30,606 nt of DNA from a virus. The notes beneath the pieces are model-generated. The model did not search any database. It worked only from the letters and a program-made list of their open reading frames with translations, and was not told where the DNA came from. Position 1 is the first letter of the stretch, and every line of letters starts with the position of its first letter. The DNA is taken from positions 1 to 30,606 of the IMG/VR virus record IMGVR_UViG_3300049596_000214. The stretch is one strand, 5' to 3'. A program made the translations under genes and the position numbers. Of this stretch, positions 3,423-27,847 are shown piece by piece.

Positions 3423-4211
3423 ATGGCTATACAAACAAAGGGTAGATTGTTTTTTGATATAGAAACAAGTCCAAACATTGGTTTCTTTTGGCAGTCGGGT
3501 TATAAACTGCAAGTTCCATATACAAACATTATTAAAGAACGTGCTATTATTTGCATTTGCTACAAGTGGGAAAATGATAAAAAGGTTCATTCATTAAATT
3601 GGGATAATAACCAATGTGATAAACAAATGCTAATTGATTTTATCAAGATAGCAAATGAAGCAGAAGAACTTGTTGGACATAATGGCGATAAGTTTGACTT
3701 AACGTGGATACGCACAAGAGCGTTATTTCATCGTTTGCCTATGTTTCCTCAATATACTACAATTGATACCCTTAAACAGGCTCGTAGTGCCTTTAGATTT
3801 AATTCAAATAAGTTAGATTATATTGCAAATTTCTTGGGAATAGGCAGTAAGCTGGAAACCGGGTTTGGATTGTGGCGTGATATCGTTTTACACAAAGATA
3901 AAAAAGCATTGGCTTCAATGATTAAGTATTGTAAGAACGATGTTGTAATTCTTGAAAAAGTATTTAACCATTTATCGGGATATGTACCACACAAAACACA
4001 TCGTGGAGTTTCATTGTATGACGATAGAAATTCTTGCCCACATTGTGGAAGCAAACAAATAAATATTAATAAGCACAAAACAACTGCAAGTGGAATAAAA
4101 AAAGTTTGTTATGTGTGTGTTCCTTGCGGTAAATATCATACAGTTTCGCAACAACAATCTAATAGAATTTTAATTGAACGATATAACGATGAAAGTATTG
4201 GAAGCATTTGA
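3423..4211 (+). CDS. DEDDy 3'-5' exonuclease with C-terminal zinc ribbon
   Basis: 262 aa with an RNase H-fold exonuclease domain. FFDIET gives D12 and E14 (Exo I); GHNGDKFD (85-92) gives D92 (Exo II); IKYCKND gives Y169 and D173 (Exo III, YxxxD, the DEDDy class). The core resembles the YprB/predicted 3'-5' exonuclease group rather than a full polymerase. A zinc ribbon follows (C205/C208 with C229/C232/C235), probably for nucleic-acid binding. No polymerase domain is present. Likely roles are trimming recombination or replication ends, or degrading host DNA. It sits between neck and lysis genes, behind its own promoter-like gap, which suggests separate timing from the structural genes. Confidence 0.85.
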   Translation: MAIQTKGRLFFDIETSPNIGFFWQSGYKLQVPYTNIIKERAIICICYKWENDKKVHSLNWDNNQCDKQMLIDFIKIANEAEELVGHNGDKFDLTWIRTRALFHRLPMFPQYTTIDTLKQARSAFRFNSNKLDYIANFLGIGSKLETGFGLWRDIVLHKDKKALASMIKYCKNDVVILEKVFNHLSGYVPHKTHRGVSLYDDRNSCPHCGSKQININKHKTTASGIKKVCYVCVPCGKYHTVSQQQSNRILIERYNDESIGSI

Positions 4212-5883: not shown

Positions 5884-5946
5884 GCATTTTTTCTATTTGA
5901 TTATCAAGCACTTACGATACTATTAAAAAAATAATTACGATTTTTC

Positions 5947-5978
5947 TTGCATTGTATTATGTCTTGAATGTATATTTG
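5947..5978 (+). promoter_or_regulatory. Early promoter: TTG-N21-TATATTTG
   Basis: TATATTTG at 5971-5978 is a full match to the Bacteroidota -7 consensus TAnnTTTG; TTG at 5947 (or 5952) is a possible -33 box. Transcription would start near 5985, giving a leader of about 17 bases before ATG 6002. The stretch from 5971 is TATATTTGTTCAACAAACAA, identical over 20 bases to the minus-strand promoter at 27274. Confidence 0.75.
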
Positions 5979-5987
5979 TTCAACAAA
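5975..5987. promoter_or_regulatory. 13-bp palindrome TTTGTTCAACAAA, candidate operator 1
   Basis: TTTGTT-C-AACAAA is a perfect inverted repeat around a single base, overlapping the -7 TTTG and the predicted start site. The same palindrome recurs at 8124 and, on the other strand, at 27258-27270. Its core TGTTSAACA also occurs in the iteron-like units at 9157 and 27365. Confidence 0.55.
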
Positions 5988-6001: not shown

Positions 6002-6208
6002 ATGAAAATTAAATTTATAAAACAAACTTCAGAAAAAAAGTTCACAAACGGATTTACTGGTAAGGGAAATTCAAAAAGATATATATGTGTAGATGAAAAT
6101 GGATTTGTTGGTTGTTTGCCAAATGAAAATGTAGCTTATTCTCCTATTGGTGGTATTTCTACACTTAAAGAAGTTTTAGATATACTTGAATTTAAAAATT
6201 TAAAATAA
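6002..6208 (+). CDS. Hypothetical early protein, 68 aa
   Basis: First gene after the early promoter. The product is basic and beta-prone (MKIKFIKQTSEKKFTNGF, then YICVDENGFVGCLPNENVAY) with a C-terminal helix (LKEVLDILEFKNLK). No domain is recognised. Its stop overlaps the next ATG as TAATG. Small first genes of phage early operons often act on host functions, but nothing in the sequence proves that here. Confidence 0.75.
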   Translation: MKIKFIKQTSEKKFTNGFTGKGNSKRYICVDENGFVGCLPNENVAYSPIGGISTLKEVLDILEFKNLK

Positions 6209-6547: not shown

Positions 6548-6720
6548 TGGCACAAAAAGTTCTAATCGTTGCAAATCCACAAGGTGTAGATGCAATCACA
6601 ATCGGTAAAGAAGGAACGATTTTAAAAAAATTCTTCGACAAAGCATTAATCCAATTTACTAACGAGTTTGGGGAATTAGAAGAATGGTATTTCTCAAACA
6701 ATGAATTTCAAAACCTATAA
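6547..6720 (+). CDS. Small hypothetical protein, 57 aa
   Basis: ATG at 6547 overlaps the previous stop and its own TAA at 6718-6720 overlaps the ERF gene ATG. The product starts MAQKVLIVANPQGVDAITIG, then a helix with KKFFDKALIQFTNEFGELEEW. It is compact, mixed alpha/beta, and without cysteine. No family recognised. Its place directly before ERF suggests the recombination module. Confidence 0.68.
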   Translation: MAQKVLIVANPQGVDAITIGKEGTILKKFFDKALIQFTNEFGELEEWYFSNNEFQNL

Positions 6721-7277
6721 TGAAAAACCTAATCGAAAAGCTGGTCTTAATTCAAAGTGAATTAAAAGCACCTAAAGGACAAACAAACAAATTCGGTGGT
6801 TACAAGTATCGCTCTTGTGAAGATATTTTAGAAGCCTTAAAACCACACTTAAAAGAGCAAGGTCTATTTTTATCAATTACCGATGAATTAGTAGCACAAG
6901 GCAATAGATACTACATCAAAGCAAGTGCAATCATTACCGATGGTGTAGACCGATGGTCGGTAGATGGTTGGGCAAGAGAAGAAGAAGTTAAGAAGGGAAT
7001 GGATAGTTCACAAATTACAGGTGCTTCTTCGTCTTATGCTCGTAAGTATGCGCTAAACGGATTGTTTGGCATTGATGACACAAAAGATAGTGATGCAACA
7101 AACGATGGCGACATTCCACAAATGCCAACGGTTAATTTACAAACTGCCGTTTATGATATTGGCTTGGCTAATAGTTTAGAAGGATTGAAAACAATTTGGG
7201 CGAAGTATCCACAATTCCAAAAGCAACAAGAGTTTATTGATGCAAAGGATAAAAAGAAAATTGAACTAAATGGATAA
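6720..7277 (+). CDS. erf: ERF-family single-strand annealing protein
   Basis: 185 aa, with the ERF signature GASSSYARKYALNGLFGIDD at residues 101-120 and the usual N-terminal helix and FGGYKYRSCEDILEALKPHL segment (25-44). ERF proteins form rings on single-stranded DNA and anneal complementary strands during phage recombination and circularisation. The length matches ERF proteins with a short C-terminal tail. The gene overlaps both neighbours by 1-8 bases and is followed by genes that look like partners, including a protein with an SSB-like tip at 7774. A PD-(D/E)XK nuclease at 9451 could supply resected ends. Confidence 0.9.
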   Translation: MKNLIEKLVLIQSELKAPKGQTNKFGGYKYRSCEDILEALKPHLKEQGLFLSITDELVAQGNRYYIKASAIITDGVDRWSVDGWAREEEVKKGMDSSQITGASSSYARKYALNGLFGIDDTKDSDATNDGDIPQMPTVNLQTAVYDIGLANSLEGLKTIWAKYPQFQKQQEFIDAKDKKKIELNG

Positions 7278-7746
7278 TCAGCTATTAACATTCGAGGGGT
7301 TGCAAGTGCAATCTCTCGATAAAGCCACTATAAGCAATCAAAGTCAGTTGGTTAAGGCAAACATACTTGATGGCAATTTGGATGCGTTAGAAGTCCTTAT
7401 ATCAGCCAAGAAGATGCAGGAACTTGGTAAGCAGCTGGAAGAAATAAGCAGACCAATAGCAGAAGATAGATTGGTTCTTGGTCGTGGCGAAGTTTATAAG
7501 TTTCAATCGGTAGAAGTAATTGAAAAAACAATAGGTTCGAGAACTGATTATTCAACTTGCAATGACCCGGAATGGGAGAGCCTTAACCAAGCATTGTGTG
7601 ATATTAAAGATGCTATCAAAAAGCGTGAAACATTTTTAAGCGCAATCACATCGCCTACTACAATCGTTACTAACGATGGTGAAATAATTACAATAAATCC
7701 ACCAATCAAGTCGGGTAGGCTTGGTTTATCTTTAACAATTAAATAA
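7270..7746 (+). CDS. Recombination-module hypothetical protein, 158 aa
   Basis: The gene starts inside the end of erf. The product has a beta-rich N-terminus (LLTFEGLQVQSLDKATI), a central helical part (LEVLISAKKMQELGKQLEEI; LNQALCDIKDAIKKRETFL) and a C-terminal strand pair ending in SGRLGLSLTIK. Proteins of this layout often follow ERF or bacteriophage Gp157-type genes in Bacteroidota phages, but no named domain can be assigned from the sequence. A role supporting single-strand annealing is suggested only by the overlap with erf. Confidence 0.8.
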   Translation: MDNQLLTFEGLQVQSLDKATISNQSQLVKANILDGNLDALEVLISAKKMQELGKQLEEISRPIAEDRLVLGRGEVYKFQSVEVIEKTIGSRTDYSTCNDPEWESLNQALCDIKDAIKKRETFLSAITSPTTIVTNDGEIITINPPIKSGRLGLSLTIK

Positions 7747-7997: not shown

Positions 7998-8156
7998 ATG
8001 ACACACGAAGAAGCAGTACAAGTTTTGGTTAATGCAGTAGCAGTAGCGCAAAACAAAGGAGCATTTACTTTAGGAGATGCAAAAGTAGTAATTGATGCGC
8101 TACAAATTGTAAAACCCGAACTATTTGTTCAACAAACCGAAGAAGTAACAGAGTAG
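7998..8156 (+). CDS. Small hypothetical protein, 52 aa
   Basis: ATG at 7998, two bases after the previous stop; TAG at 8154-8156. The product reads MTHEEAVQVLVNAVAVAQNK, then GAFTLGDAKVVIDALQIVKP and an acidic tail. It is a clean two-helix protein with Ala/Val-rich faces, and it ends just before a terminator, so it is the last gene of this block. Its 3' part contains a copy of the 13-bp palindrome seen in the early promoters (8124-8136). Function unknown. Confidence 0.75.
   Translation: MTHEEAVQVLVNAVAVAQNKGAFTLGDAKVVIDALQIVKPELFVQQTEEVTE
8124..8136. promoter_or_regulatory. 13-bp palindrome TTTGTTCAACAAA, candidate operator 2
   Basis: Same palindrome as at 5975 and 27258, here inside the 3' end of the 52-aa gene and preceded by CTA rather than TATA. 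It is not part of a clear promoter, so it may be an auxiliary binding site or chance in an AT-rich genome. Confidence 0.35.
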
Positions 8157-8199: not shown

Positions 8200-8766
8200 A
8201 TGCAAGAAACGACAAAAGATTTGTGCTATTGGGCAGCACAACTATACCACACAGACCGAGTCCCTTCAGATATTATTTACGATAGAATATTAAATAGCAA
8301 ATCAAGGCTAAAAGAAGTCGCACAAGCGAAGCAATTAGTTGGGTATATGTTATATAACCATTTAGGTTTTACGCTTCAACAGGTAGCTTATGAATTGAAT
8401 TTAACTAATCATTCAACCATTATCTATTGGCTGGATAAAATACAAGTTCAACTTCGTACAAACCGAAGAATGCAATACCGTTATGATTATATGAAAGACG
8501 TATTGCGTGGTGAACAAAAACCAATCATTCGACAAGCATCAAGTGTATCAAACAAAAACGAATTAAGCGAAGCTGATATGCAGTTTATGAAATTAAATTT
8601 TAATAATGGGTATAGTGTTTCGTATTATTCCGATGTATTGCGAAAGAATAGACAACCTGTTAAATCATACTTACGATTTTTATTAAAAGAAATTAGTATA
8701 TTTAGCGCCCCGAAAGTAGATAGGTTTCGTACATCCGGGATTAAATCACAATCAATAGATTATTAA
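8200..8766 (+). CDS. DnaA domain IV-like replication/DNA-binding protein
   Basis: 188 aa. Residues 41-95 resemble the DnaA C-terminal DNA-binding domain: a helix (QAKQLVGYMLYNHLGFTLQQ), VAYELN, then TNHSTIIYWLDKIQ (69-82), corresponding to the DnaA RDHSTV signature that reads the DnaA box. There is no AAA+ domain, so it cannot open DNA alone. A second helical region (SEADMQFMKLNFNNGYSVSYYSDVLRK with a following KSYL) may be another helix-turn-helix. It lies next to the DUF4373 initiator, so it may recognise the phage origin or compete at DnaA boxes. Confidence 0.75.
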   Translation: MQETTKDLCYWAAQLYHTDRVPSDIIYDRILNSKSRLKEVAQAKQLVGYMLYNHLGFTLQQVAYELNLTNHSTIIYWLDKIQVQLRTNRRMQYRYDYMKDVLRGEQKPIIRQASSVSNKNELSEADMQFMKLNFNNGYSVSYYSDVLRKNRQPVKSYLRFLLKEISIFSAPKVDRFRTSGIKSQSIDY

Positions 8767-8767
8767 A

Positions 8768-9451
8768 ATGAAAAAAACTTACTACTTCCAACACGATTTT
8801 GAGGCGATAAGCGACCCTAAAATTCAGTACATTTTGGCAAAGTTTGGTGGCATTGGCTACGGTCTTTGGTGGCGCATTGTAGAAATGTTGCACCAAGAAG
8901 AAGATAACAGGTTAAAGCACAAGGAATATCTATACTTTGCATTGGCTAATCAATTACAATGCGAACAAGGTTTGGTAAAATCTTTTATTCAATCCTGCAT
9001 TGAAGATGTTGAACTTCTTGATAGTGATGGCGAATACTTTTGGAGTGAACGAGTGCTAAAGAATGTAGGTAAAATGCAAGAGTTAAAAGAAAAACGCTCA
9101 AGTGCTGGTAAAAAGAGTGCTGAAAAACGTACTGATAATCAGCAAGTTGCAACAAGTGTTGAACAAGTGCTAACAAGTGTTGAACAAATGCCAACAAAAG
9201 AAAACAAAAGAAAAGAAAATAAACTATATAGTAAGCCAAGTTTGAGTGAGGTTATTGATTTTTTTAATCAAAATGGTTATCAAGATGCAGGTGCTATAAA
9301 AGCATATACCTATTACGATGAAGGAAGCTGGACTGATAGTAATGGCAATAAGGTTAAAAATTGGAAACAAAAGATGCGTGGTATTTGGTTTCGTGATGAG
9401 TACAAGATTAATAAACCAACAGTAGCTAACTTCTCTTTACCTATAAACTAA
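8768..9451 (+). CDS. DUF4373 (Lin1244/Lin1753-like) replication initiator
   Basis: 227 aa. Residues 1-100 match the DUF4373 pattern (YYFQHDFEAISDPKIQYILAK at the start, GGIGYGLWWRIVEMLHQE, then FWSERVLKN). Next is the usual KRSSAGKKSAEKR basic linker. Residues about 124-140 are a direct repeat, TSVEQVL followed by TSVEQMP, then Lys-rich KENKRKENK. The C-terminal part (VIDFFNQNGY, WTDSNGNKVKNWKQKMRGIW) is the DnaD-like end common in such proteins. These proteins act as initiators or helicase-loader partners. The repeat is also visible in DNA as 21-bp units and may be the origin itself, as in lambda O. Confidence 0.85.
   Translation: MKKTYYFQHDFEAISDPKIQYILAKFGGIGYGLWWRIVEMLHQEEDNRLKHKEYLYFALANQLQCEQGLVKSFIQSCIEDVELLDSDGEYFWSERVLKNVGKMQELKEKRSSAGKKSAEKRTDNQQVATSVEQVLTSVEQMPTKENKRKENKLYSKPSLSEVIDFFNQNGYQDAGAIKAYTYYDEGSWTDSNGNKVKNWKQKMRGIWFRDEYKINKPTVANFSLPIN
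9136..9198. repeat. Three tandem 21-bp iteron-like units, copy A (candidate origin inside the initiator gene)
   Basis: Units at 9136-9156, 9157-9177 and 9178-9198. Units 2 and 3 both begin TGTTGAACAA and differ at few positions; unit 1 is more diverged. Each ends in (C/T)AACAAG or a close variant. A purine-rich AAAGAAAA tract follows to about 9222, then CTATATAG. A diverged copy is at 27344-27440. Confidence 0.7.
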
Positions 9452-9816
9452 TGAGCAACTTCAATAAAGATTTTAAATTTGATTTGGATTTTGGTGTTTT
9501 AAATGGAGAAACTTGGTTTCACGAAATTATGACCAATAAGACAATAGAGGTAAAGTGCGATAGGATGACAACCCAAACAGGTAATGTTTATATCGAGTAC
9601 GAAAGCAGAGGTAAGCCATCCGGTATAGCAACAAGCCAAGCCGATTATTGGGTTTACAAATTTGATAAAGAAAGTGCAATAGTTTTTAAAACCGATGCAC
9701 TTAAAGACAAATTAAAAAGATTAGTTAATTTAGGTATTGCAAAAGCAGATATTAAAGGTGGAGATAATAAAACTTCAAAAGGAGTTCTATTAAGTTTAAA
9801 AGATTTATTATATTAG
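9451..9816 (+). CDS. PD-(D/E)XK-like nuclease
   Basis: 121 aa starting at the last base of the initiator gene. The motif IEVKCDR gives E33-x-K35 with D37, followed by GNVYIEYESRGKPSGIATSQ and ADYWVY. This order (ExK, strand with IEYE, then Ser/Gly-Ile and AdyW) is common in PD-(D/E)XK fold endonucleases such as small phage resolvase- or exonuclease-like proteins. The upstream acidic residue may be D11, D13 or E20. It may cut replication or recombination intermediates. The fold is a motif-based inference. Confidence 0.65.
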   Translation: MSNFNKDFKFDLDFGVLNGETWFHEIMTNKTIEVKCDRMTTQTGNVYIEYESRGKPSGIATSQADYWVYKFDKESAIVFKTDALKDKLKRLVNLGIAKADIKGGDNKTSKGVLLSLKDLLY

Positions 9817-9837: not shown

Positions 9838-10845
9838 ATGATAAAAAAACTAACTGATTTCGAGAATGAAATTTTGGCATTTCATAAACAAGGTATTCAA
9901 AAAGGCGACTATTGTGGCTTTGATACTCTTGATGAATACTACACAAGGAAAGCTGGTAGTATGACATTCATACTTGCATCGCCACATTCCGGTAAAACTG
10001 AATTTAACCTTGAGTTATTGCTAAACCTTTCTTTACTTCATAACCAAAAGCACATTCTTTTTACACCCGAAACAGGCGATTATAAAGACATTGCTAAAGA
10101 ACTCGTATCGAAGTATTGTAAGAAGCAATTTTTTGCAAGTGATTTTGAGCATTGTACTGAAGCCGAAATTTATAATGCTATAAACTTTCTATCCGATAAA
10201 TTCTTTATTGTAGATAACGATGAAAATAGTTTTACGTTTGATGATATTATAAACCAAACAAAGCAGTTTGAACTTGATAATAAAGTTAAGATAGACAACA
10301 TTCTATTTGACCCATACAACGAGATTAAACACGATATGAAAGATTATGCAGGTCGCCAAGATTTATACATTGAAGATGCCATTGGTAAGTTAAGACGTTA
10401 TGCAAAGAAAGAAAATAAACACATCTTTATTTGTATGCACCCACAAGACCAAGCGCCAATAACCGAAAATGGAATTACTTTCTATCCACCACCACACCCA
10501 AGACAATCAGCTGGAGGGCAATCATTCTTTCGTAAAGCAATGGCATTCATAATTCTTTGGCGACCACCAAAAGGATTTATTGACAATGAAACGCAGCAAC
10601 CATACGAAGATAATGAAACACAAATACATATTGCAAAGGCAAAGCCGAAAGGTAGCGCTAAACTTGGTAAGTGTAAATTATATTTCGATTGGCGTAAAAA
10701 TAGATTTTATGAACGCAAAGATGATGGTATTTACTTTGGATTGGAAGCAAAGGCGAAGCGTGAGCGTAACGTGGAAGCTGGTAACTTGGAATTATCTGCA
10801 TTGAAGAATACATTTGGTAAAGAATTTAACGAAGCACCTTTTTAA
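9838..10845 (+). CDS. DnaB-like RecA-fold helicase/ATPase
   Basis: 335 aa, a single RecA-like ATPase domain without the DnaB N-terminal domain. Walker A is ASPHSGKT (47-54), with Ala instead of the usual first Gly. Walker B is NILFDPYNEI (D158). HIFICMHPQDQ (about 195-205) is the strand with the sensor His/Gln, and GGQSFFRKA (226-234) is the conserved DnaB-like motif with SxxF/RKA. It probably unwinds DNA 5'-3' at the phage fork. No primase or polymerase is encoded, so host enzymes must join it. It sits directly after initiator and nuclease genes. Confidence 0.82.
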   Translation: MIKKLTDFENEILAFHKQGIQKGDYCGFDTLDEYYTRKAGSMTFILASPHSGKTEFNLELLLNLSLLHNQKHILFTPETGDYKDIAKELVSKYCKKQFFASDFEHCTEAEIYNAINFLSDKFFIVDNDENSFTFDDIINQTKQFELDNKVKIDNILFDPYNEIKHDMKDYAGRQDLYIEDAIGKLRRYAKKENKHIFICMHPQDQAPITENGITFYPPPHPRQSAGGQSFFRKAMAFIILWRPPKGFIDNETQQPYEDNETQIHIAKAKPKGSAKLGKCKLYFDWRKNRFYERKDDGIYFGLEAKAKRERNVEAGNLELSALKNTFGKEFNEAPF

Positions 10846-13525: not shown

Positions 13526-13674
13526 TGCGACCAATGAATGTTAGCGCACTTCAAGAAATACAAGCATTAATAGAAATTCTTCGAGAATTAGAAGATATTG
13601 ATACTATTGGGAATGGAGTAACTATTAAGATTAAAATATTAAATAGAATTGAAAGTTTAATTGATACTTTATAA
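13525..13674 (+). CDS. Small hypothetical protein, 49 aa
   Basis: ATG at 13525 overlaps the previous stop (TAATG) and its TAA at 13672-13674 overlaps the next ATG. The product MRPMNVSALQEIQALIEILR is an amphipathic helix followed by ELEDIDTIGNGVTIKIKILN and RIESLIDTL. A short two-helix protein without recognised domain. Its coupled position in a continuous operon supports expression. Confidence 0.65.
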   Translation: MRPMNVSALQEIQALIEILRELEDIDTIGNGVTIKIKILNRIESLIDTL

Positions 13675-14168
13675 TGGATATTACATTAATCAAACCAAAC
13701 CCAAACAACCCAAGAGTTATACGAGATGCAAAGTTTAAGCAACTTGTAAGGTCTATTCAAGAGTTTCCCGAAATGCTTGAGTTAAGACCTATCGTGGTGA
13801 ATGAAGATATGATTACGCTTGGTGGTAATATGCGACTTCGTGCTTGTATTGAAGCTGGATTGACCGATGTGCCTGTTGTAATTGCAAAAGGATTAAGCGA
13901 AGAACAACAACAAGAGTTCATTATAAAAGATAACGTAGGATTTGGCGAATGGGATTGGGACGATTTAGCTAATAGTTGGGACGAAGAAAACTTAAAACAA
14001 TGGGGACTTGATTTCCCGATGTTTGACGAAGCCAAAATAGAAGATGAACAAGATACCCAACCTTTCATTAAAGTTTCAATAGAAGCGACGAATGACACCT
14101 TCATTGAGATGAATGAGAAGTTGCAGAACCTTTGCGATGAATACAACGTAATTATGAAGGTAAAATGA
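13674..14168 (+). CDS. ParB/Srx-like nuclease domain protein
   Basis: 164 aa. IKPNPNNPRVIRDAKFKQLV and LRPIVVNEDMITLGGNMRLR (about 37-56), with GGNMRLRA as the ParB box, mark a ParB/sulfiredoxin-like domain. ParB-like phage proteins may bind CTP or cut single-stranded DNA; in many phages they are coupled to DNA methyltransferases, but none is present here. The C-terminal part (DWDDLANSWDEENLKQWGLD, then FIKVSIEATNDTFIEMNEKL) is the usual phage ParB-associated tail. The start is fixed by overlap with the upstream stop. Confidence 0.82.
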   Translation: MDITLIKPNPNNPRVIRDAKFKQLVRSIQEFPEMLELRPIVVNEDMITLGGNMRLRACIEAGLTDVPVVIAKGLSEEQQQEFIIKDNVGFGEWDWDDLANSWDEENLKQWGLDFPMFDEAKIEDEQDTQPFIKVSIEATNDTFIEMNEKLQNLCDEYNVIMKVK

Positions 14169-21655: not shown

Positions 21656-23758
21656 ATGGCAACTGAAGAAATAGCGTTAAAGATAACGACCGATACCACA
21701 CAAACGGAAAAATCGGTTAAGAGTATAAGAGCAGAATTAAGGGAAGCGACACAAAACGCAGTAGCTTTAAGTAGGCAATTTGGTGAACTTTCTCCCGAAG
21801 CATTAGCTGCTGCTCAAAAGGTAGCAAACTTAAAAGATGAAATAGGTGATTTAAAAAATAGAATTGATGCATTAAATCCCGATGCAAAATTTCGTGCATT
21901 TTCTTCAGCACTACAAGGTGTAGCAGGTGGATTCGCTGGTGTTCAAGGTGCAATAGGTTTATTCGGTACTGAAAGTCAAGAACTTGAAAAGCAATTATTA
22001 AAAGTACAAAGTGCTTTAGCTTTATCCGAAGGTATTAATAGCGTACTCGAAGCAAAAGATAGTTTCTTAAATTTAGGTGCAGTTATTAAAACAAGAGTTG
22101 TAACTGCATTTAGCACATTGAAGGGTGCAATTATTGCAACAGGTATCGGAGCGCTTGCTGTTTTGTTGGGTACTATTGTCGCCTATTGGGATGAAATTAG
22201 CGAGGCAATTGGCGGAGCAACAAAAGAAACAAAGGCATACGGAGAAGCACAGAAAGAAGTTAATAGCGAGGTTGAAAAAGCATACGAAAATTTAATTGCA
22301 GTAGGTAATGGATTCCAAGCTGCTAGGGATGGGGCAATTTCAAAGACCGAAGCATTGGCATTATACAATGATAAGCTTGGTGCAACAATTGGAAAAGCTG
22401 AAACATTAGAACAGGCAGAAAGATTATATAAAGCTAATAGTGCAAACTATATCAAATCAATTACTGCAAGGGCTACCGCTCAAGTTTTATTAGCAAAGGC
22501 GGCAACCGCTGCTGCAAAGGCAGCAACAGGAGAAGATGCTGATTTAGGTTGGTGGGATACTGCAGTTGTAGCTGTTGCGAACGCTGTTGGTGGTATTGGA
22601 TTAGCTTCCGAAGAAGTTGTAAAAAGAGCAAGTAAAAACAGGCAGGAAAATCAAGATGAAATAAATTTATATCAAGGTTTAGCTTTAAAGGAATTAGAAA
22701 AAGCGGGAGCAGCTGAAGCTGAAATGCAAAAAGTCGCAGTTTCTAATGGAACAAGTATTGTAAGGGCAGGCGTAAAAGCACAAACAGCAGCAAAAAAAGA
22801 AGGTATAACTCAACAGGCTAATGATAGAAAAGTTGAGATGACCCAAGAAGAAAAAGATGCACAAGCTAAAAAAGAATTATTTGAAAAAAACAAAAAAGAA
22901 CTTCAAGATTTAAATACTGAAACCGCTGAAGAAAATAGGCTTGCAAGGCTATCGGAATTTGAAAGAGATATTGAGCAACTTACAACCGAGTACAATGATA
23001 AACTTGCAAAGGCAAAAGAATTTAACGTAGGTATAGAAGCAATAACTGAAGAGTACGAAAGGAAAAAGAAGGAAAGGGAAAAAGAACAAGATATTATAGA
23101 CCTTGAAAAAAGTATAGAAAATGATGCTGCAAAAATTGCAAAAACTCAAGGCGACTTTGAAAACGATTTAGCGATATTGGATGCTCAAAGACAAATGATT
23201 TTGAGTAATACTGCATTGACTGAAGAGCAAAGAACAAAGCTATTAGAAGAAAATGCAAAAGCAAGAGTCGAAATAACTAAAGGCGAATTTGAAGCACGAA
23301 TGGCTTTGATGGATGCACTTGGTCAAGGAATGAATACTCTATCCGATTTGGTTGGAAAAGAAACCGCAGCTGGAAAAGCATTTGCAGTTGCTGCATCTTT
23401 AATAAGCACTTATTCAGCAATAGCGGGACAATTAAGTGCATTCTCAAAAATACCTATTCCCGGATATGCAATAGCACAAGCAGTAGCAACAGGATTAGCA
23501 GGTTTTGCAGCGGTTAGAAATATATTAAAGGTTAAAGTTCCGGGTGGCGCACCCGCACCGGCTGCTCCTGCGGGAAGTATGGCAATGCCAACTCAAGCAC
23601 CAATAGCATCTGCTATTCAAGTAACAAATACGCAAACACTTGGAACAACTGATGTAAATGTGCAAAATCAAGGTGCAGTAAAAGCATTTGTTGTAGAAAG
23701 CGATATTACCGATAGCCAAGATAGGGTAGCAAAAATTAAAGCAGCAGCCACATTATAA
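21656..23758 (+). CDS. Tape measure protein
   Basis: 700 aa. The N-terminus is coiled coil (TEKSVKSIRAELREATQNAV; LKDEIGDLKNRIDALNPDAK). A hydrophobic segment lies around residues 155-177 (GAIIATGIGALAVLLGTIVA). A long charged helix follows (KKELQDLNTETAEENRLARL; EEYERKKKEREKEQDIIDLE). A second hydrophobic region is at about 575-620 (ASLISTYSAIAGQLSAF, AVATGLAGFAAVRNIL). This is the plan of a tape measure, which sets tail length; at roughly 0.15 nm per residue the tail would be near 100 nm. Unusually, it follows rather than precedes the distal tail genes. Confidence 0.92.
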   Translation: MATEEIALKITTDTTQTEKSVKSIRAELREATQNAVALSRQFGELSPEALAAAQKVANLKDEIGDLKNRIDALNPDAKFRAFSSALQGVAGGFAGVQGAIGLFGTESQELEKQLLKVQSALALSEGINSVLEAKDSFLNLGAVIKTRVVTAFSTLKGAIIATGIGALAVLLGTIVAYWDEISEAIGGATKETKAYGEAQKEVNSEVEKAYENLIAVGNGFQAARDGAISKTEALALYNDKLGATIGKAETLEQAERLYKANSANYIKSITARATAQVLLAKAATAAAKAATGEDADLGWWDTAVVAVANAVGGIGLASEEVVKRASKNRQENQDEINLYQGLALKELEKAGAAEAEMQKVAVSNGTSIVRAGVKAQTAAKKEGITQQANDRKVEMTQEEKDAQAKKELFEKNKKELQDLNTETAEENRLARLSEFERDIEQLTTEYNDKLAKAKEFNVGIEAITEEYERKKKEREKEQDIIDLEKSIENDAAKIAKTQGDFENDLAILDAQRQMILSNTALTEEQRTKLLEENAKARVEITKGEFEARMALMDALGQGMNTLSDLVGKETAAGKAFAVAASLISTYSAIAGQLSAFSKIPIPGYAIAQAVATGLAGFAAVRNILKVKVPGGAPAPAAPAGSMAMPTQAPIASAIQVTNTQTLGTTDVNVQNQGAVKAFVVESDITDSQDRVAKIKAAATL

Positions 23759-26056: not shown

Positions 26057-26569
26057 ATGGCTTGTGCTTTAACTCAAGGGTACACTTTAGATTGCAAAGA
26101 CAGTTTAGGTGGTTTAAAATCAGTTTTATTTATCGAAAGCGAAAATGTATCAGTTGACACCGAAACCGATGGTGTAATTACCGATATTCAATTAGCAGTA
26201 GGTAAATATTTCTACAAATATGAATTGGTAAAAGAAACTTCTATGTTTATGGAAACTGTTACCGCTTCAATTCAAAACGGTACTATTTTTTATGCTCAAG
26301 AATTAACTATTGTTCTTAACAAATTACAAGCAAATACTCGTAATGAGATTTTGTTACTTGCTAAAAACAATTTAGTAGCAATCGTTGAAGATAAAAATGG
26401 TAAGTATTGGTATTTAGGTCAAAATGGTGGCTTGGATATTACAGGTGGAACAGCTGGAAGTGGTACTGCTGCCGGTGATAGAAGTGGTTATGAATTAACT
26501 TTTAGTGGTCAAGAAAAAGAACTTGCTCCCGAAGTTTCTTCATCAATCATTAGTGGTTTGATTGACTAA
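26057..26569 (+). CDS. Major tail tube protein
   Basis: 170 aa. The fold is beta-rich with a long central helix (QLAVGKYFYKYELVKETSMF; ELTIVLNKLQANTRNEILLL) and the C-terminal loop KNGKYWYLGQNGGLDITGG, followed by Gly/Ser-rich sequence and SGYELTFSGQEKELAPEVSS. This arrangement is that of tube proteins of Bacteroidota siphophages. Subunits stack as rings around the tape measure. It has no visible own promoter between the upstream terminator and ATG 26057. Confidence 0.75.
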   Translation: MACALTQGYTLDCKDSLGGLKSVLFIESENVSVDTETDGVITDIQLAVGKYFYKYELVKETSMFMETVTASIQNGTIFYAQELTIVLNKLQANTRNEILLLAKNNLVAIVEDKNGKYWYLGQNGGLDITGGTAGSGTAAGDRSGYELTFSGQEKELAPEVSSSIISGLID

Positions 26570-27056: not shown

Positions 27057-27242
27057 TTATATTTTAAAATCTTTATATGTTTTAGAAAGTTGTTCTGTTT
27101 TAATCCATTTAGGATTATTTTTAGAACCCTTAACTTGGCAAAGTGTTTTATCGCCTTCGGTTTCTAATGCGATGTACACCATACCTTGCCAATAGTAAGA
27201 ATTAATTCTAAAAAATTCGTTTTGTTCTAATTGAGGTATCAT
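27057..27242 (-). CDS. Minus-strand early hypothetical protein, 61 aa
   Basis: The ATG at 27242 gives MIPQLEQNEFFRINSYYWQG and then MVYIALETEGDKTLCQVKGS, KNNPKWIKTEQLSKTYKDFK. It is an SH3-like or small beta-barrel-like pattern with aromatic residues. A longer frame starting with TTG at 27269 is rejected because that TTG is the end of the promoter -7 box. Transcription starting around 27260 gives an 18-base leader. It is the first gene of the cassette, under a twin of the promoter at 5971. Function unknown. Confidence 0.72.
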   Translation of the reverse strand: MIPQLEQNEFFRINSYYWQGMVYIALETEGDKTLCQVKGSKNNPKWIKTEQLSKTYKDFKI

Positions 27243-27257
27243 ATCTTTTTTGTCTTG

Positions 27258-27270
27258 TTTGTTGAACAAA
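27258..27270. promoter_or_regulatory. 13-bp palindrome, candidate operator 3
   Basis: TTTGTTCAACAAA on the minus strand, overlapping the TTTG of the -7 box and the predicted start site, exactly as at 5975. Confidence 0.55.
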
Positions 27271-27296: not shown

Positions 27297-27343
27297 AAAA
27301 AATAAAAAAAAAGTGAAATTTTTTTTAATTGATTATCAACGAG

Positions 27344-27406
27344 TTAGCAACAAAATTCAACAAGTGTTCAACAAATGCTAACAAGTGTTCAACAAAATTC
27401 AACAAA
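27344..27406. repeat. Three tandem 21-bp iteron-like units, copy B (intergenic)
   Basis: Units at 27344-27364, 27365-27385 and 27386-27406. Units 2 and 3 begin TGTTCAACAAA; unit 1 shares AACAAAATTCAACAA with unit 3. A purine-rich AAAAGAAAAGAAAAG tract follows to 27440, then ATATATATAG. The left side (27290-27340) is extremely AT-rich. It matches copy A (9136-9222) in order and spacing. No gene is assigned to 27297-27487 apart from this and the promoter. Confidence 0.72.
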
Positions 27407-27452
27407 AGAAAAGAAAAGAAAAGAAATAAAAAGAATATATATAGTGTTTTTA

Positions 27453-27482
27453 TTTGTTTGTGTTTTTATCTTTTTATATTTA
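27453..27482 (+). promoter_or_regulatory. Promoter TTTG-N18-TATATTTA with TTATATTTA start-proximal element (27474-27482)
   Basis: TTTG (27453-27456), 18 bases, then TATATTTA (27475-27482), ending 5 bases before ATG 27488. This is the only copy of the TTATATTTA element that also has a proper -33 box, so it supports the idea that the nonamer is a -7 promoter box. Confidence 0.55.
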
Positions 27483-27487
27483 TTAAT

Positions 27488-27847
27488 ATGATACTTTTAA
27501 GAAAAGGATTTACTGAATACGTGGTATTGCATTTTGATGAACCACAAATACAGGAAGGTTCTATTTATCTTTTAGAATTTACCAATGACATCACAAACGA
27601 GGTTGTTTCAATATCGTTATTTAACCAATCTTATTACATTGAAAGGTATTGTGCATTTGGTATTAACGTAAATACTAATTTTTTATATAAAGAAGAAGGT
27701 TTTTGGAGTTACGAAGTTTTTGAAAGCAGAATTTCACCAAGCATTAAGAGATTATTAGGTTCGGGTAAAATGAAGTTAGTTGGCGAAGAAGCTGGTTATA
27801 CTCAATACGACGGACAAGACGATGAATTTATAGTATATAATAACTAA
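27488..27847 (+). CDS. Hypothetical structural-region protein, 119 aa
   Basis: The ATG at 27488 follows the TTATATTTA element and begins MILLRKGFTEYVVLHFDEPQ, then strands (GSIYLLEFTNDITNEVVSIS; LFNQSYYIERYCAFGINVNT; EEGFWSYEVFESRISPSIKR), ending in YDGQDDEFIVYNN. It has a beta-sandwich look. The longer frame from 27329 would put the iteron tract in the protein and is rejected. Its stop overlaps the fibre gene start. Proteins like this before a fibre gene often connect fibre to baseplate, but that is inferred. Confidence 0.75.
   Translation: MILLRKGFTEYVVLHFDEPQIQEGSIYLLEFTNDITNEVVSISLFNQSYYIERYCAFGINVNTNFLYKEEGFWSYEVFESRISPSIKRLLGSGKMKLVGEEAGYTQYDGQDDEFIVYNN

Follow-up and report, generated by a model that had tools for sequence, protein, structure and literature searches.

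On what DNA does a phage replication initiator of the Lin1244/DUF4373 family act? A literature search turned up no described origin for these proteins, and the rep gene considered here raises the question in a concrete form, with 21-bp repeats lying in the middle of its coding sequence. The window, by which we mean the whole stretch of DNA analyzed, is an entire IMG/VR virus record of 30,606 bases that carries a 127-bp terminal direct repeat. Several similar contigs also end in terminal repeats, of 99-131 bp, which have the appearance of overlaps left when circular contigs are assembled; the genome is therefore probably circular, with a length of ~30.48 kb. This phage and its relatives are uncultivated, and their hosts are probably Bacteroidota. 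A genome-collection search with the conserved Rep C-domain returned five matches only, all of them distant.

The assignment of Rep is clear at the family level, with matches to Pfam PF14297 Lin1244_N (E 4e-14, 53.5 bits, curated cut-off 25) and to PHROG 2562, "replication initiation protein" (E 2.5e-21). The AlphaFold model has an ordered N-domain, a linker (129-152) predicted to be disordered (pLDDT about 35), and an ordered C-domain. The N-domain is predicted to be winged-helix-like. A PDB sequence search with Rep matched nothing meaningful, and a PDB fold search gave nothing below E 0.001; the weak fold matches were mostly winged-helix regulators, with one "MDR initiator" at E 0.03-0.4. O-family matches were absent from Pfam, PHROG, and NCBIfam. 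By analogy, Rep may work like lambda O, yet it is not filed as O. The C-domain (containing VKNWKQKM..WFK/R; 9230-9451 in the window) is common to proteins with unrelated N-domains (L063, L079, L065, L070, and others), a distribution that suggests shuffling between a specificity half and a partner-binding half. Elsewhere in the genome, residues 491-545 of the portal protein (24-1988; Phage_portal, E 9e-12) match a MarR-like winged helix (E 1.2e-05), a fusion that is unusual, and the start of the ORF at 13674-14168 (MDITLIKPNPNNPR...) resembles ParB N-terminal domains by eye.

Table 1. Positions of genes and sequence features in the window
Feature	Position	Strand	Basis or comment
ERF single-strand annealing recombinase	6720..7277	+	Pfam ERF E 6e-40
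Small protein with DnaA domain-IV-like helix-turn-helix, directly 5' of rep	8200..8766	+	Pfam Bac_DnaA_C E 6.5e-08
Rep, Lin1244/DUF4373-type replication initiator gene, contains array 1	8768..9451	+	Pfam, PHROG, AlphaFold
CTGATAATCAG dyad immediately 5' of array 1	9132..9142		Counterpart of TTGATTATCAA at 27329; role uncertain
Array 1, 21-bp iterons in Rep linker; candidate main origin, oriL-like	9143..9197	+	Tandem Repeats Finder, frozen synonymous sites, co-variation
11-bp dyad GTGTTGAACAA, site 1 of array 1	9156..9166		
11-bp dyad GTGTTGAACAA, site 2 of array 1	9177..9187		
Purine-asymmetric AAAAG-like tract after array 1	9196..9223	+	Codes K-E-N-K-R-K-E-N-K; Tandem Repeats Finder limits for AAAAG-type repeats 9193-9223
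AT-rich segment 3' of array-1 tract (AAAATAAACTATATAGT), candidate unwinding element	9216..9232		
Small gene between rep and helicase gene	9451-9816		
DnaB-like replicative helicase	9838..10845	+	PHROG 239 E 1.4e-23; Pfam DnaB_C E 1.2e-05, slightly under curated cut-off
Conserved late gene 5' of array-2 slot	26057..26569	+	Syntenic in G005, G007, G008, G011
TTGATTATCAA dyad 5' of array 2	27329..27339		
Array 2, intergenic iterons; candidate oriR-like site	27348..27403	+	Tandem Repeats Finder, 2.8 copies of 21 bp
11-bp dyad GTGTTCAACAA in array 2	27364..27374		
11-bp dyad GTGTTCAACAA in array 2, second site	27385..27395		
(AAAAG)6 purine tract of array 2	27404..27435	+	
AT-rich segment with ATATATATAG by array 2, candidate unwinding element	27427..27484		
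ORF immediately 3' of array 2	27488..27847	+	Syntenic in relatives

The iterons within rep and their intergenic twin

Tandem Repeats Finder describes array 1 as a repeat of 21-bp period with 2.6 copies (score 76), that is, two full units and one partial. A sequence-only reading of this DNA had proposed three tandem units; those at 9157 and 9178 are full and, as it had noted, share their start, TGTTGAACAA, and the one proposed at 9136 matches in its second half only. The seven-codon period that it read in the protein, TSVEQVL/TSVEQMP, is correct. Each unit consists of an 11-bp dyad, KTGTTSAACAA (GTGTTGAACAA), plus a half-unit of 10 bp whose last bases are AACAA, so that the two kinds of half-unit alternate with an internal period of ~10.5 bp, AACAA recurs at that interval on one face of the DNA, and the full 21 bp correspond to two helical turns. 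At a lag of 21 bp, identity within array 1 is 0.83, compared to 0.64 +/- 0.06 under synonymous codon randomization, with 7 of 20,000 randomizations reaching 0.83. The periodicity thus exceeds both chance and what the peptide demands. In two other genomes, repeats were also seen in the part of rep that encodes the N-domain: in G017 (7330-7345, Rep-forward orientation), a 16-bp sequence, ATACGAACGTATTACA, that recurs exactly in the linker, and in L146 (G015; 6120-6167), further TGTT.AACA-like units 5' of the linker array.

A second array, overlooked in the sequence-only reading, is found in the late region. The stretch from 27348 to 27445 matches array 1 at 87% over 82 bp, a match that takes in the array, the (AAAAG)n tract, and TATATAG, and comparing the genome with itself yields this pair (E 2e-20) and no further dispersed repeat of 35 bp or more. 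Array 2 lies just past the head genes, with minus-strand ORFs on one side (the nearer at 27057-27269) and the ORF at 27488 on the other; it is 18.21 kb from array 1, leaving 12.27 kb the other way round the 30.48-kb circle. Windows of 30 bp containing 29 or more purines occur at two places in the genome, and the tract of array 2 is one of them. An uninterrupted purine stretch of 30 bp, the longest that the genome contains, is at 23057-23086 in a tape-measure-like gene, and iterons are absent beside it. The least stable 50 bp on the array-2 side, starting at 27435, fall in the genome's top 0.03%; those on the array-1 side are in the top 7%, not exceptionally unstable. Genome-wide, the TTGATWATCAA dyad that flanks both arrays shows no enrichment, and the exact TTGATTATCAA also occurs at 5897. 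Cumulative GC skew climbs along nearly the whole genome, following gene direction, and does not switch at either array; we therefore consider skew uninformative as an origin signal here.

The linker is constrained at the level of DNA. In 15 type-A rep genes, 4.1% of the linker codon pairs that can be compared differ synonymously; codons for the same amino acids in the rest of the gene give an expectation of 31.0%, and none of 20,000 resamplings was as low as the linker. In sliding windows along rep, synonymous divergence dips at the linker only, and in the purine tract it is 0.046, compared to 0.335 in the N-domain. When rep codons were swapped for synonyms, the alignment score against array 2, which is 63 for the natural sequence, averaged 26 and never exceeded 53 in 5,000 trials, which places the resemblance between the arrays at the DNA level. 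As to whether relatives keep the peptide and lose the 21-bp DNA period, a possibility raised in the sequence-only reading, they keep the DNA: synonymous sites are frozen, and the non-coding copy retains the sequence as well.

Distribution of the arrays and their exchange with Rep type

Both arrays are present in all nine near-complete genomes of this backbone, the window included, with array 2 located 17.6-20.0 kb downstream of array 1; the short arc in relatives is about 11-16 kb. Four near-complete genomes of 30.5-35.9 kb (G005, G007, G008, and G011) have the same Rep type as the window, with 62-86% Rep identity, are syntenic with it or circularly permuted, and carry array 2 in the same slot, as do the shorter contigs L148 and L150. 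Within the intergenic copies of relatives, several half-units have decayed, and what is kept are the purine tract and TTGTTSAACAA dyads spaced ~20-21 bp apart. G011 has one additional 21-bp unit, equal to 7 residues.

More broadly, among the 19 contigs that encode this Rep C-domain and are 28 kb or longer, 10 have a twin array (E 1e-10 to 1e-22), with a same-length N-domain segment used as the control never scoring better than 0.012. The second copy was absent in the other 9 of the 19, and the two-array plan is therefore common in this set, not universal. A survey of 80 loci of the neighboring capsid-region gene yielded new type-A slots only in L148, L150, and the truncated L149, besides type-B slots, since most of these loci belong to distant phages without this Rep. 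No twin array was found in three cultured phages with Lin1244 Reps (Porphyromonas phage005b, Vibrio 1.259, and EF62phi) or in Olleya phage Harreka_1. Pairs of similar intergenic segments without a coding partner were seen in G034 (4025-4101 and 26092-26169) and G022 (23032-23109 and 31525-31599); these pairs, about 8-22 kb apart, could be promoters or another two-site element.

The two arrays change together when the Rep type changes. On the backbone of the window (backbone 1), four phages, G031, G032, G052, and G053, have helicases of the same family and the same slot for array 2, but combine them with a different Rep N-domain (MKYFLHDTASFEDEKI...). Their linker DNA reads AATGTAACGCATTC...GTAACACTC, followed by AAAGT repeats and then TATATATA, and their intergenic slot holds this same different sequence. 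Coding arrays were aligned against intergenic ones on the iteron parts only, with the shared tract left out: pairs from one Rep type score 27 or more, and pairs from different types 21 or less (shuffled null, 23 at 99.9%). On a second backbone, G019 and G028 have iterons of the TAGCCCCCCTAA and AACGACCGTT types in the rep linker, and each has a second array between the same two late genes, which are co-directional. Here, the two arrays of one genome align with scores of 40 and 45, and pairing arrays across the genomes gives no more than 14; the null reaches a maximum of 24. In both genomes, the iterons are inverted relative to the purine tract, and a shared peptide therefore cannot explain the match. 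From this co-variation in two backbones, we infer that one initiator binds both sites. The iteron sequence is not strictly tied to one N-domain, because G022 and Harreka_1 have a different N-domain type, yet similar TGTT.AACA-like linker DNA.

Candidate roles of the two arrays

Judged from these sequence comparisons, both arrays are very likely landing pads for Rep, used for starting or controlling genome copying. We are fairly confident of a more specific version, in which Rep would bind both arrays, with array 1 as the main origin and array 2 as a second Rep-bound site. We imagine that Rep binds the 21-bp iterons of array 1 on one face of the DNA through its winged-helix-like N-domain, that the purine/AT tract beside them may then melt, and that Rep would load the phage DnaB-like helicase, starting theta replication at array 1. 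Array 2, with the same layout and presumably also bound by Rep, could be a second (late) origin or a Rep-dependent fork barrier; a barrier at this position might aid a switch to recombination-dependent concatemer synthesis, as proposed for oriL and oriR of the Bacillus phage SPP1. That array 2, in a large group of uncultivated phages, is not a spare origin at all, and is instead a programmed Rep-dependent fork barrier that switches the mode from theta to concatemer and possibly times late transcription, is a tentative idea to which we give some chance. If it were true, the initiator domain, the gene-embedded origin, and the distant barrier would swap between phages as one specificity module.

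Single perfect TTGTTSAACAA dyads also occur outside the arrays, at 5976-5986, 8125-8135, and 27259-27269. The dyads at 5976 and 27259 are next to promoter-like elements (TATATTTG) whose leaders are similar, and the former is found again in G007; the dyad at 8125, which seems to be situated where a short coding frame ends, is shared with G002, G003, and G005. The position of the first and last of these beside promoter-like elements suggests that the dyad may serve transcriptional control too.

One can therefore envision array 1 as the origin and array 2 as an operator through which Rep controls a late promoter 3' of it or the divergent minus-strand gene. The overlap of single dyads with promoter-like elements at 5976 and 27259 would fit, as would the location of array 2 between divergent genes, ahead of a conserved ORF whose AT-rich leader is promoter-like. 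We nevertheless find an operator unlikely: array 2 has the whole layout of an origin, including a purine tract and an AT-rich segment that an operator would not need, the slot in backbone 2 is between co-directional genes, not divergent ones, and the promoter dyads are not conserved in G005, G008, and G011. If it did act as an operator, late transcription would be coupled to replication. Binding of the arrays by a host or phage DnaA-like protein instead of Rep appears more doubtful still, even with a DnaA_C-like gene immediately 5' of rep that is kept in relatives. The iterons are not DnaA boxes; TTATNCACA has 1 match where 2.2 are expected, none of it near either array, so that the DnaA-box cluster of an oriC-type origin is absent. 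Moreover, the recognition region of this neighbor (NHSTIIY/NHSSIIY) is nearly identical across the backbone-1 Rep types, whereas their iterons differ completely; it is the Rep N-domain that changes along with the iterons. The lack of box enrichment, together with a constant recognition region alongside differing iterons, disfavors the DnaA-like neighbor as the binder.

It is true that, in one frame, the intergenic copy of the window can be read as a linker-like peptide (QQNSTSVQQMLTSVQQNSTKEKKRKE), and one might take the coding repeat for a mere low-complexity linker and its twin for the leftover of a duplicated rep. We regard this as scarcely credible. Synonymous freezing and the non-coding twin largely rule out a low-complexity peptide as the explanation; beyond this, rep-domain sequence is absent beside array 2, in 10 of 11 genomes no open frame joins the array to the ORF that follows it, and the arrays are exchanged with the Rep type, with the iterons inverted in G019 and G028.

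Relation to known phage origins

The sequence-only reading had compared this locus with lambda O, and the anatomy bears this out: a winged-helix-like N-domain, a disordered linker encoded by the iterons, the purine tract, the AT-rich segment, and then the C-domain. On its own, the comparison is incomplete, with SPP1 and its oriL and oriR being closer. In SPP1, the replisome organizer gp38 binds oriL inside its own gene (gene 38) and oriR in an intergenic part of the late region, each consisting of direct repeats and an AT-rich DUE. Of the two, oriL is where theta replication begins, and the arrest of forks at oriR when gp38 is bound there has been proposed to set off the change to concatemers (PMC6316719, PMC3485210). 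The genome described here likewise has one array in the initiator gene and a second in late intergenic DNA, with direct repeats and an AT-rich element in both, and the spacing is alike, 12-13 kb on the SPP1 circle and 12.3 kb by the short way here (PMC6316719, PMC3485210). SPP1 also has a phage DnaB-type helicase and an annealing recombinase for a theta-to-sigma switch, and DnaB-like and ERF genes are present here, as candidates for the same role. The initiator here is assigned to the Lin1244/DUF4373 family, and the likeness to the gp38 (G38P) system is one of layout, by published description.

In lambdoid phages, iterons and an AT-rich region in the middle of gene O form the origin, and extra iterons just lengthen the protein (PMC7466680). 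The resemblance extends to iterons between two folded domains in mid-gene, followed by an AT-rich/purine tract, and to the extra unit of G011, which lengthens Rep in the same way. The differences are that Rep has no Pfam or PHROG match to O, that a P-like loader was not found, and that the 21-bp unit here contains an 11-bp dyad. Lambda is not known to have a second array. For RepL of phage P1, the origin (oriL) was postulated to lie inside the initiator gene and was dissected with synonymous changes (PMC9948254). The parallel is the placement of an origin within the gene of its initiator. The P1 element is an AT-rich region, not a set of iterons, and a single site, and its protein is unrelated to Rep. 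On these comparisons, our best reading is a lambda-O-style origin with a second Rep-binding site, for which oriL/oriR of SPP1 would be the closest known system.

The two-site plan itself is already known from SPP1; what we describe is its likely occurrence in an initiator family for which no described origin was found. Our findings point to a likely site of action for Lin1244/DUF4373 proteins, a widespread and so far origin-less family of phage initiators. They also provide a purely computational test for initiator-origin pairs in uncultivated phages, namely, a coding array that equals an intergenic array and swaps with the initiator. If confirmed, the SPP1 two-site plan would be general and not a Bacillus peculiarity, and the natural swaps would offer ready partners for testing the part played by the second site in the switch from circle-to-circle to concatemer replication.
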